Shown here in pieces: positions 11,626 to 52,550 of a DNA stretch of 64,000 nt; within the stretch, counting starts at the first letter, position 1; the number at the start of each line of letters is the position of its first letter. Below the pieces are notes generated by a model, which ran no database searches, had not been told where the DNA came from, and worked only from the letters and a program-made list of their open reading frames with translations. This DNA is from Methanomassiliicoccales archaeon PtaU1.Bin124. GTDB lineage: Archaea > Thermoplasmatota > Thermoplasmata > Methanomassiliicoccales > UBA472. The stretch lies in assembly GCA_002067865.1 (NCBI GenBank), contig MVRC01000013.1, positions 248,001 to 312,000 of the forward strand, given 5' to 3'. The translations under genes were made by a program, and so were the position numbers.

Positions 11626-11703
11626 GGGCCCATAGCTTAGCCTGGTTGGAGCGCCCGGCTGATAACCGGGAGGTCAAGAGTCCAAATCTCTTTGGGCCCA
11701 CCA
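11626..11703 (+). tRNA. tRNA-Ile (GAU), copy 1
   Basis: Full cloverleaf. Acceptor GGGCCCA pairs with TGGGCCC; anticodon stem CCCGG/CCGGG encloses CTGATAA with anticodon GAT; T-arm AGAGTCCAAATCTCT. The discriminator is A and CCA is encoded at 11701-11703. No intron. The body is identical to the copy at 18525. Confidence 0.97.
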
Positions 11704-18524: not shown

Positions 18525-18602
18525 GGGCCCATAGCTTAGCCTGGTTGGAGCGCCCGGCTGATAACCGGGAGGTCAAGAGTCCAAATCTCTTTGGGCCCAC
18601 CA
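18525..18602 (+). tRNA. tRNA-Ile (GAU), copy 2
   Basis: The 75-nt body is identical to copy 1 at 11626, again with encoded CCA (18600-18602) and no intron. The sequence downstream differs from copy 1 after CCA. It marks the left border of an AT-richer segment that ends at a 3'-half copy of this tRNA (21639-21693). Confidence 0.97.
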
Positions 18603-27575: not shown

Positions 27576-28340
27576 ATGGAGACCTGGGAATTGGACGATG
27601 ACCGCTGGCCTTGGTTCGAAGAGCAGATCCAAGGCAAGGAACTGGACTACCATTGGTTCATCGTCGATTGGCACACCTGCCGGAATGATACCAGGATCAG
27701 TATCGCTCAGGAAGGAGGACGGCTGGCGGGCGCGCTGTTGATATTCAGGGGCCGGATATGCCAGATGAGAGGGGAGAGCCAGGCAGCGGAGGCATTATTG
27801 GCCATGGTAGGGGAGGGCGTGACCGAGATGGTGATGCCACTCGAATGGGTCGATCTCATGCCAGCTCGGTTGAAGGTGAAGAGGATGGAGGAGATCCTCC
27901 TCATGAGCCTGGAGAAGGGCAGCGAGAGGCTCATCTTCGTGAGGGAACCGGAAAGACTCGGCCCATGGGACCTGAACGATTTAGTGGCATTGCTGCATGA
28001 GGCGGACAGGATTACGTGGGGTGAAGTGACGGCTGCGAGCCTGGCCGATTCGGTCGCCACCGGGGCATGGTATGGGATCAGGCAGAACGGCCGCGTCGTG
28101 GCCGTTGCAGGCTCCTGGATGAAGGGCGACCCGAAGCACGTCAACATCGTAGCGGTATCGAAACAGTTCCGCGGGCATGGATATGCCCGGTCCGTCCTCT
28201 CCCGTTTGCTGGAGGACATTTTCCAGGAATCGGACAAGGCCCTTATCAACGTGAGGGCGGACAATATGCCGGCATTGCGGGCGTACAAAGCGTTGGGATT
28301 CGTTCCACGGCTGACTTATTGCCGCGCGATCATGGTTTAA
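27576..28340 (+). CDS. GNAT-family acetyltransferase
   Basis: 254 residues. The C-terminal half is a GNAT domain with VNIVAVSKQFRGHGYARSVLSRLLE (acetyl-CoA loop RGHGYA) and NVRADNMPALRAYKALGFVP. The N-terminal half resembles the accessory domain of FR47/DUF-type GNATs. Substrate unknown. No operon partner; the ncRNA follows. Confidence 0.8.
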   Translation: METWELDDDRWPWFEEQIQGKELDYHWFIVDWHTCRNDTRISIAQEGGRLAGALLIFRGRICQMRGESQAAEALLAMVGEGVTEMVMPLEWVDLMPARLKVKRMEEILLMSLEKGSERLIFVREPERLGPWDLNDLVALLHEADRITWGEVTAASLADSVATGAWYGIRQNGRVVAVAGSWMKGDPKHVNIVAVSKQFRGHGYARSVLSRLLEDIFQESDKALINVRADNMPALRAYKALGFVPRLTYCRAIMV

Positions 28341-28387
28341 GTATCATTATCAAAAGAGGTTATCTCGTCTGATTCCCGACCCGTCAT

Positions 28388-28397
28388 GCTTATATCC
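28388..28397 (+). promoter_or_regulatory. TATA box of the 28.4-kb RNA
   Basis: GCTTATATCC lies about 25 nt before the inferred RNA 5' end near 28415. No coding start follows at a suitable distance on this strand. Confidence 0.55.
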
Positions 28398-28414
28398 TCG
28401 AAAGTCCAAATTAA

Positions 28415-28618
28415 TCATCATAGAATATGACTGGATGATGCTAACATCCGGCGATCTATCCGGGTTGCCGTCCGCACGTTATGGCGGATTGAACGGCACC
28501 GGAGGTCGCCGGGGCCTCCTCCAACTGCCGTTCCTATCCGGTCCGGCAGCAGGCCCCGAGGGTCCGTCCGCACGTTAAGGCGGAAAGAACGGCGACGAGG
28601 TGCTGCTGGACCGTTTTT
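28415..28618 (+). ncRNA. Putative structured RNA with tandem hairpins
   Basis: About 200 nt between a TATA box and a T5 tract. Predicted elements: hairpin GGATG/CATCC (28433-28449); hairpin A (28467-28497) with GCCGT/ACGGC, inner CCGC/GCGG, loop ACGTTATG and 3' bulge ATTGA; a long central stem GGGGCCT/AGGCCCC (28511-28517 with 28551-28557) extended by CTGCCG/CGGCAG; hairpin B (28564-28592) with the same plan, loop ACGTTAAG and bulge AAAGA. It is not SRP RNA, which is at 52230, and I see no RNase P core motifs. Class unknown. Confidence 0.6.
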
Positions 28619-28938
28619 CACATCACCGATTCCAGCTGGACCTTCTTCTCGAACCCCCATTGCTTGATCGTGCTGCGGGCGTTCTCCATGAGGTCATATG
28701 AGGTCACCAGGAAGGTCATGCACCCCTCCTTGACCGCATCCTCCAGCCCCTGGCGCAGCTTGAGGTCGAGGTCCAACGGTTCGAATGCCGCAAAGCCCCG
28801 GAAACGTCGTCCATCCGGACGAAGTGCCGAGATGAACGTGAGCTGCCCCTGAGCGATCTCCACTTGGGTGAAGCCCTTACGGCGCAGGTCCTCCCTCCAC
28901 AGCCCGATATACTCCTCTGCCAAAGTGGAAGTGGTCAT
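28618..28938 (-). CDS. Conserved-looking hypothetical protein
   Basis: 106 residues of mixed alpha/beta pattern: helix (STLAEEYIGLWREDLRRKGF), strand (EIAQGQLTFISALR), then DLKLRQGLEDAVKEGCMTFLVTSYDLMENARSTIKQWGFEKK. No motif recognised, no membrane segment. Its stop codon overlaps the T-tract of the converging RNA. Third-position G/C preference supports it as a real gene. Confidence 0.6.
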   Translation of the reverse strand: MTTSTLAEEYIGLWREDLRRKGFTQVEIAQGQLTFISALRPDGRRFRGFAAFEPLDLDLKLRQGLEDAVKEGCMTFLVTSYDLMENARSTIKQWGFEKKVQLESVM

Positions 28939-29942: not shown

Positions 29943-30584
29943 GTGCAGATGCAGGTGCTGAAGAGCCTGCGCGAGTTCTATCCCATAAAAGTGGACGAGA
30001 TCGTGCTAATCTCCTCGGTGCAGAAGGTGCTGAAGGACGTCATCATCGATCAGGTGACGCAGGCCATCAAGGTGCTGAAGGAGAACGCCTGGATCGAAGA
30101 GGCGGTCATAAAGGCCCCGTTCGGCAAGACCGAGACCTATCGCTTCAAGATCACCTCGGACGGCATCGATCACCTCCAATCTCTGGAAGAATCGACCACG
30201 AAGAAGACCATCGTCTCGGCCAAGGAGGTGGAGTCGAGACTGGTCGAGACCTACGACCGCATCAAGAACGACATGGAGGAGATGCGCACCGGCATCGAGA
30301 CGGGGCAGAGATCGCTGGAGGGGGAGATGGAGGAGATGCGGAAGCGCATAGCCGACCATGACCAGGTGATCAGGACGTACTTCCTCCGCGTCATCGAGAC
30401 CTTCGGGGTGTTCGTCAGCATATTCGCGGTCGTGGTGGTCCTCATTCTTACGTTGGGCCTAGGGGCCAAGGAGGCCGGGACGTCCACCTACCTCTACCTT
30501 ATGGTGAGCGTGCCGATCTGCGTGGTCGTCTACGTGGTGGTCATGCTGTGGGGCATCAAGCGGTTCATCCTCATAGGGAAGTGA
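29943..30584 (+). CDS. Membrane-anchored winged-helix/coiled-coil protein 1
   Basis: 213 residues from GTG 29943; by comparison with the next gene about ten more residues may lie upstream at a non-ATG start. N-terminal ~75 residues look like a winged helix (VLKSLREFYPIKVDE ... YRFKITSDGIDHL). A coiled coil follows (about 85-140), then HDQVIRTYFLRVIE and two hydrophobic helices (about 150-172 and 182-204). It is paralogous to the following gene, 4 nt away. It may sense or signal at the membrane; no known family recognised. Confidence 0.65.
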   Translation: MQMQVLKSLREFYPIKVDEIVLISSVQKVLKDVIIDQVTQAIKVLKENAWIEEAVIKAPFGKTETYRFKITSDGIDHLQSLEESTTKKTIVSAKEVESRLVETYDRIKNDMEEMRTGIETGQRSLEGEMEEMRKRIADHDQVIRTYFLRVIETFGVFVSIFAVVVVLILTLGLGAKEAGTSTYLYLMVSVPICVVVYVVVMLWGIKRFILIGK

Positions 30585-30588
30585 GCGG

Positions 30589-31254
30589 ATGGCGGAGGAG
30601 AGGAAGGACGCGAAGGACCTGGTGCTCTGCCTCCTGGCCAGATTCCATCCGATCAAGGCCAGCGAGAAGGAAGTGGCAGATGAGCTGCATGCGGAGAACG
30701 GCCTGAACCAGGAGGAGGTCCACACGGCGCTGGAATCGCTGCGCATCGCCGGATCGGTGGAGATGACCACCGTTCAGCTGGCGCATCTTTCGGCAACGGA
30801 GGACCGCTATTCCATCACCGACAAAGGCCGGGAGGCCCTCCGGGCCAAGGGCATGGACCCGGCACAGGAATGCATCACGCCGCGCGAGATCGAATCCCGG
30901 CTGATCTCCAATTACGACCGGATCAAGGCGGAGATGGAGCAGGTGCGGCAGAACCTGGAGAGGAACCAGAAGACGCTGGAGACGGAGATGACCGGCATAC
31001 GGAAGAGCATGGGGGAGCACGATCAGTTCGTCCGCACCTACATGGTCCGCATCGTCGAATCGATCTCGATGTTCATCGGCATCTTCGCCATCACGGTGGT
31101 CATGATGGTCAATGTGCTGAAGGACCTCTCCCTCATCCCTGACAAGACCATGCTCGTCATATTCGTGGCCACATTGCCGACGCTGCTCATCATCACCATA
31201 ATCCCTGGGCTGTGGTTGATCAGAAGGATGATATTGGAACCGAGGCCTCATTGA
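30589..31254 (+). CDS. Membrane-anchored winged-helix/coiled-coil protein 2
   Basis: 221 residues, same plan as the upstream paralogue: winged helix (LLARFHPIKASEKEVADEL ... YSITDKGREAL), shared CITPREIESRLISNYDRIKAEMEQ against SAKEVESRLVETYDRIKNDMEE, coiled coil, HDQFVRTYMVRIVES, and two C-terminal helices. Tandem duplication with divergence suggests hetero-oligomers. Convergent with the DUF1638 gene, whose stop abuts. Confidence 0.65.
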   Translation: MAEERKDAKDLVLCLLARFHPIKASEKEVADELHAENGLNQEEVHTALESLRIAGSVEMTTVQLAHLSATEDRYSITDKGREALRAKGMDPAQECITPREIESRLISNYDRIKAEMEQVRQNLERNQKTLETEMTGIRKSMGEHDQFVRTYMVRIVESISMFIGIFAITVVMMVNVLKDLSLIPDKTMLVIFVATLPTLLIITIIPGLWLIRRMILEPRPH

Positions 31255-52229: not shown

Positions 52230-52550
52230 CCCGCTAGGCTAGACCGGGACGCTCGGCGTGCCCTTATACACCGAAATCGTCGATACGCGGGGGTGACAGC
52301 GGAGGACGTCGTATCCGGAGAGCCTTGAGCCCATGCGACGGTGCTGATGTCCTGTCCTACGGGGTCGGTGGCGGTATCGTGGCACAGCTGGAGGGCTGTG
52401 CCCCTTGCCCTAATCACGGAGACCGGGTCAGGCCCTGACGGGAGCAGCCTTACTGTGGACTACTTACGCTCGAAGGGGAGCGGGGCGGAGCCGCTGCATG
52501 GTTCACTCATGGTGATCCGAGCGGCAACCTTCGTGGCCTAGCACTCCTCA
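52230..52550 (+). ncRNA. Signal recognition particle RNA (archaeal 7S RNA)
   Basis: The 5' GCTAGGC (52233-52239) pairs with GCCTAGC (52536-52542) near the 3' end as helix 1. The Alu-domain core (CTCGGCGTGCCC, ACCGAAATCG, GATACGCGGGGG) and the SRP54-binding helix 8 motifs GTCAGG (52427-52432) and GGAGCAGCC (52441-52449) are in the right order. T-rich TTTTCTT follows. About 315 nt, normal for archaea. 52104-52200 between lipA and this RNA holds only promoters. Confidence 0.93.

Follow-up and report, generated by a model that had tools for sequence, protein, structure and literature searches.

Twin hairpin heads in an intergenic region of a Methanomassiliicoccales archaeon: a candidate lineage-specific small RNA gene

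The intergenic locus and its bounding signals

The 64-kb window analysed here, that is, the whole stretch of 64,000 nucleotides from Methanomassiliicoccales archaeon PtaU1.Bin124, harbours an intergenic spacer of 277 bp between the gene of a GNAT-family acetyltransferase and a convergent gene encoding a 106-residue protein (Table 1). Within this spacer lies a candidate RNA region of raised G+C content (65% vs. 57.5%), in which two long hairpins, HP1 and HP2, carry near-identical heads at their tips.

In a genome from another genus of the same family (G004), the genes for the acetyltransferase, the homologue of the 106-residue protein and an aldo/keto reductase are found in identical order and orientation, but the stop codons of the convergent pair are separated by 21 bp, compared with 277 bp here, and the RNA is absent. 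The two other genomes of the genus exhibit different neighbours on that side of the gene for the 106-residue protein. This is most simply read as a gain of the RNA in the lineage of the present genome; its loss or fast divergence in the other genomes is an alternative to be borne in mind. At least three genomes (those of the window, G001 and G004) have an aldo/keto reductase gene next to that for the 106-residue protein. Farther along the window, positions 29943-30584 and 30589-31254 encode two adjacent apparent paralogues, by eye a coiled coil followed by two membrane helices, with no Pfam family for either.

Table 1. Coordinates of the features in and around the candidate RNA region (positions refer to the window)
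Feature	Coordinates	Strand	Remarks
GNAT-family acetyltransferase gene, upstream neighbour	27576..28340	+	same strand as candidate RNA; Pfam PF00583, E 6.1e-14
TATA-like box CTTATATC	28389..28396	+	weak, consensus match only; expected transcription start ~28415-28420
Possible small 5′ hairpin GGATG-ATGCTAA-CATCC	28433..28449	+	in minimum-energy fold; shares first 2 nt of HP1
HP1, long hairpin tipped by head 1	28448..28512	+	outer stem CCGGCGATC/GGTCGCCGG, then TCCGG/CCGGA and TG/CA; -39.0 kcal/mol
Head 1, CCGT CCGC-ACGTTATG-GCGG ATTGA ACGG	28468..28496	+	loop 28476-28483, bulge 28488-28492; inner-stem (CCGC/GCGG) pair probability 0.99 in all contexts tested
Competing middle stem GAACGGCA (28491-28498) / TGCCGTTC (28526-28533)	28491..28533	+	inverted repeat; in minimum-energy fold of full RNA; excludes lower HP1
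HP2, long hairpin tipped by head 2	28539..28613	+	outer stem CGGTCCGGCAGCA/TGCTGCTGGACCG; inverted repeat of 13 nt, 92%
Head 2, CCGT CCGC-ACGTTAAG-GCGG AAAGA ACGG	28564..28592	+	loop 28572-28579, bulge 28584-28588; inner-stem probability ~0.68 in full RNA
T5 tract, putative terminator	28614..28618	+	directly after HP2; touches stop codon of convergent gene
Gene for 106-residue protein, downstream convergent neighbour	28618..28938	-	without Pfam family; kept in 12/22 genomes of the family

An earlier note on this DNA had placed the RNA between a TATA box and a T-tract, and both signals are indeed present. The + strand of the 64-kb window contains the motif YTTAWAW at 16 sites, and comparable boxes are located at a similar distance from the SRP RNA (TATAAATA), the two tRNA-Ile genes (CTTAAAA) and the RNase P RNA (GATAAAT). 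The two tRNA-Ile(GAT) genes, at 11626-11703 and 18525-18602, are themselves near-identical and lie ~6.9 kb apart on the same strand, with similar boxes upstream. Apart from the T5 tract, the intergenic region contains no run of at least four T, and four to seven consecutive U constitute the usual archaeal termination signal (PMC8716108).

In agreement with the note, the region exhibits no coding signal. A small protein-coding ORF was rejected on codon usage unlike that of the genome's genes: the 47-residue ORF at 28435-28578 scores -0.24 bits/codon, compared with +0.17 to +0.70 for ten neighbouring genes, and an 80-residue ORF on the opposite strand scores -0.37 bits/codon. The 47-residue ORF passes through both heads in the same reading frame (PSARYGGLNG ... 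PSAR-stop), a T-to-A difference in the second loop providing its stop codon.

Near-identical heads on unrelated stalks

Head 1 (CCGTCCGCACGTTATGGCGGATTGAACGGC, 28468-28497) and head 2 (CCGTCCGCACGTTAAGGCGGAAAGAACGGC, 28564-28593) are identical at 27 of 30 positions, lie 96 nt apart from start to start, and share the consensus CCGTCCGCACGTTAwGGCGGAwwGAACGGC. Direct reading and computational tools alike bear out the plan first described in the earlier note (CCGT-CCGC, loop ACGTTAwG, GCGG, bulge AwwGA, ACGG). In the 64-kb window, the heads constitute the sole pair of 30-mers with at least 27/30 identity within 300 nt; the genome contains no additional copy of the head repeat, and head-to-head identity ends at the edges of the hairpin heads (plus one base).

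The three differences are all T to A and each, as the note had stated, falls at an unpaired position of loop or bulge. With 13 of the 29 head positions being unpaired, however, all three would fall there by chance with p ~0.08, and this confinement is thus weak evidence. Moreover, since the stems are identical in both heads, the two copies exhibit neither covariation nor compensatory change. The note had also regarded the unpaired bases as conserved, a view that the searches described below do not support and that is based on two copies in a single genome: a recent duplication of 30 nt may adequately explain the identity of the heads. Each octaloop contains a palindromic ACGU, for which a loop-loop kissing duplex of -1.9 kcal/mol is calculated; such kissing is conceivable, but palindromes of 4 nt often arise by chance in loops of 8 nt.

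The outer-stem sequences of HP1 and HP2 are unrelated, yet both pair, and each head is centred within ~2 nt on its own outer inverted repeat. When the heads were fixed and flanks of 20, 25 or 30 nt were shuffled (n = 2000), the HP1 stalk was matched by 5-8 of 2000 shuffles overall (5/2000 for flanks of 25 nt, 6/2000 for 30 nt), and the HP2 stalk by 10/2000 (25 nt) and 2/2000 (30 nt); HP2 was not significant with flanks of 20 nt (440/2000 shuffles as good), which are too short for its stem. Since the outer stems differ in sequence but pair and surpass shuffles, it appears that the head was kept constant while the stalk was only kept paired. G-U wobbles occur in the stems.

For the region 28415-28618 as a whole, the minimum free energy is -91.0 kcal/mol, compared with -76.9 ± 4.9 kcal/mol for shuffled sequences (z -2.9; 0/200 as good), and the opposite strand folds nearly equally well (-86.2 kcal/mol, z -2.8). 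The long GC stem that the hairpins had been thought to flank does exist, namely as the middle stem of a competing fold that consumes the lower stem of head 1; the flanking arrangement itself has to be revised in that each head tips its own long hairpin. The lowered probability of the inner stem of head 2 in the full RNA arises from a competing fold. HP1 forms with a probability of ~1 when the transcript stops at 28520 and of ~0.45 in the full RNA. Hence, with HP1 being complete before the competing strand is made, co-transcriptional folding would favour the two stalked hairpins.

Known RNA classes and the search for homologues

Rfam 15 provides nothing in 28300-28700 at the gathering score, and a search at E ≤ 10 adds meaningless sub-threshold matches only (e.g., mir-Ro6-3, 19.8 bits vs. 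79); a match to a known family, which would have spoken against the earlier note, is thus lacking even at that threshold. The note's view that the RNA is neither SRP RNA nor RNase P RNA is likewise supported. Both are located elsewhere in the genome, the former at 52232-52543 (RF01857) and the latter on the same contig (RF00373; 195.6 bits, above cut-off), and the candidate region matches neither model. These archaeal RNAs are also stand-alone structured RNAs with TATA boxes but, unlike the candidate, fit RF01857 and RF00373.

Further classes were rejected on the features that define them. (i) An archaeal box C/D sRNA contains box C (RUGAUGA) and box D (CUGA) within the RNA; RTGATGA does not occur in 28341-28640, and the sole CTGA there, at 28369, precedes the TATA-like box. 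(ii) An archaeal H/ACA sRNA exhibits an ACA box immediately downstream of each hairpin, a two-sided guide pocket and a K-turn or K-loop; here, ACA is confined to 28444 and 28620 (the latter past T5), with none 3′ of HP1, and HP1 exhibits one-sided bulges. (iii) A CRISPR array requires at least three repeats with spacers of ~30-40 nt; only two repeats are present, and the 66 nt between them are mostly outer-stem sequence. (iv) For a riboswitch, no + strand gene is located downstream within reach. (v) Template and variable repeats of a DGR would be consistent with all three differences being T to A, but the copies comprise only 30 nt. Integron attC sites and retrons were considered and dropped.

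Homologues were sought with several probes. BLASTN of the region against 60 relatives returned nothing beyond the short matches that G+C-rich sequence yields by chance. Across 147 genomes of the order, the head pattern with one mismatch allowed gave scattered single matches at a rate close to that of a reversed control, and the loop-plus-bulge pattern gave six other matches, in which the stem positions are unpaired. The covariance search in the phylum called for by the earlier note found the heads in the present genome only, as did the searches in the order and the class (147, 400 and 390 genomes for order, class and phylum, respectively, the latter two sets being samples of larger groups). 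The best other match of the head model attains 25 bits (E 0.003 per genome), as is expected by chance across hundreds of genomes, and five class-level matches from one G+C-rich genus look on side-by-side reading like unrelated G+C-rich stretches. A covariance model of the full RNA retrieved only itself in the 147 genomes of the order, and itself plus three marginal matches (E 0.014-0.08 per genome), all from that same genus, in the 400 genomes of the class. In whole-genome searches of more than 40 genomes, stricter filters applied, so that a very divergent homologue may be missed.

Beyond cellular relatives, the exact inner-hairpin pattern has 12 single matches in viral contigs, which are coding-like or devoid of the flanking plan. 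The tandem pattern is absent from viral contigs and yields 18 unrelated tandem repeats in GTDB contigs (Bacteroidales, Nostoc and others; 0-5 of 8 stem pairs), and distant BLASTN against plasmids and phages returned chance matches only. Since no homologue was found in these searches, there is no covariation and hence no demonstrable selection on pairing or loops.

Possible readings of the twin heads

The locus represents a real sequence feature and plausibly a candidate orphan sRNA gene, albeit without comparative support. We tentatively suggest that the region 28415-28618 constitutes an intergenic RNA gene on the + strand that stands alone and is specific to this lineage, and that its heads dock the same RNA-binding protein, a reading that we regard as possible rather than probable. 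Transcribed from the + strand, the two stalked hairpins would display one 30-nt head twice, formed by the octaloop ACGUUAwG and the 5-nt bulge AwwGA on its 3′ side. The same RNA-binding protein would most likely dock on each head, and a single RNA could then bind two protein copies, or a dimer, and thus sequester or scaffold the protein. Transcription, its strand, protein binding and sequestration are inferred. The unit shared by the two hairpins comprises an entire head, including a defined loop and a bulge on one side, and this would suit a protein-recognition element that is presented twice. Against this reading stand the convergent-gene setting, in which hairpins may merely end transcripts, the nearly equal fold of the other strand, the weak TATA consensus, the lack of homologues, and the possibility that the heads are identical through a recent duplication.

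The first of these points leads to the alternative that the hairpins end or protect the mRNA of the acetyltransferase (+ strand) and/or of the 106-residue protein (- strand), with no independent RNA being made. We consider this a serious competitor, albeit somewhat less likely than the stand-alone RNA. In its favour are the convergent arrangement of the genes, hairpins that are stable on both strands, and the T runs on either side (T5 after HP2 on the + strand; AAAA at 28352, which reads TTTT on the - strand). However, the same convergent pair manages with 21 bp in G004, that is, within the same family, and a structured spacer of 277 bp thus appears unnecessary; terminators do not require two identical 30-nt heads; and a TATA-like box lies between the acetyltransferase stop codon and HP1.

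A further reasonable competitor, though less likely still, is that the RNA acts as an antisense-type sRNA, its identical octaloops being the seeds that pair with target mRNAs. Such pairing is a known mode of archaeal intergenic sRNAs, and the precedent is sRNA154 of Methanosarcina mazei, an intergenic RNA of stable structure that is conserved in Methanosarcina and for which two loops are proposed to pair with the nif, nrpA and gln mRNAs (PMC5867862). Like sRNA154, the candidate would be a stably folded, stand-alone archaeal intergenic RNA whose activity would reside in two loops, and the inner stem and octaloop of head 1 are exposed in all folds. In contrast to sRNA154, it is not conserved at all, and the near-identity of its heads extends to stems and bulges, that is, the kept element goes beyond the loop; we claim no homology between the two. 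Furthermore, the loop complement CWTAACGT occurs nowhere else in the 64-kb window.

About as unlikely is chance followed by neutral drift, in which 30 nt of a G+C-rich spacer would have been duplicated recently and would have no function. While the lack of homologues, the identity of the head stems and a whole-fold z of only ~-2.9 are consistent with this explanation, the outer stems, centred on the heads, separately beat flank shuffles (roughly 0.003 and 0.001-0.005), and the promoter-like box and T5 are found at matching places.

The ends of IS608 are same-orientation imperfect hairpins with bulges. That the locus is the remnant of a mobile element, be it a non-autonomous derivative of the IS200/IS605 type, in which a Y1 transposase recognises two bulged hairpins about 100-200 bp apart in their single-stranded DNA form, or some other insertion, is decidedly unlikely: the ~256 bp of extra sequence between genes that are 21 bp apart in another genus, the raised G+C content and the resemblance of the hairpins to the IS608 ends are outweighed in that neither hairpin has a second copy in the genome or the order, as membership would require in the form of further copies and/or an autonomous partner, that no transposase gene is found among ten neighbouring proteins, that viral, phage and plasmid collections hold no related copy, and that the G-U wobbles of the stems would be mismatches in DNA.

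Returning to the reading of a stand-alone RNA that docks a protein twice, the closest functional analogy is provided by the bacterial Csr/Rsm RNAs (CsrB, RsmZ), in which repeated hairpins with GGA motifs bind CsrA/RsmE (PMC4005645). Repeated hairpins, a recurring loop motif and a single RNA ending in a terminator (putative here) are common to both, whereas the candidate has ACGUUAwG loops and an archaeal host, and the analogy would thus concern only how the RNA works. Of the traits that mark this type (several hairpins, one loop motif, one protein), the shared loop and bulge are seen, and the protein is putative. It is tempting to speculate that the candidate constitutes a new archaeal RNA in which one protein-recognition hairpin occurs twice and titrates or scaffolds a regulator, i.e., a recent single-lineage counterpart of CsrB/RsmZ-type RNAs; we regard this extended proposal as a long shot.

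Our literature search yielded no relevant small-RNA study for thermoplasmatotal archaea. If transcribed, the RNA described here would be an orphan structured sRNA in such an archaeon, and its duplicated head would then represent a ready bait for an RNA-binding regulator.
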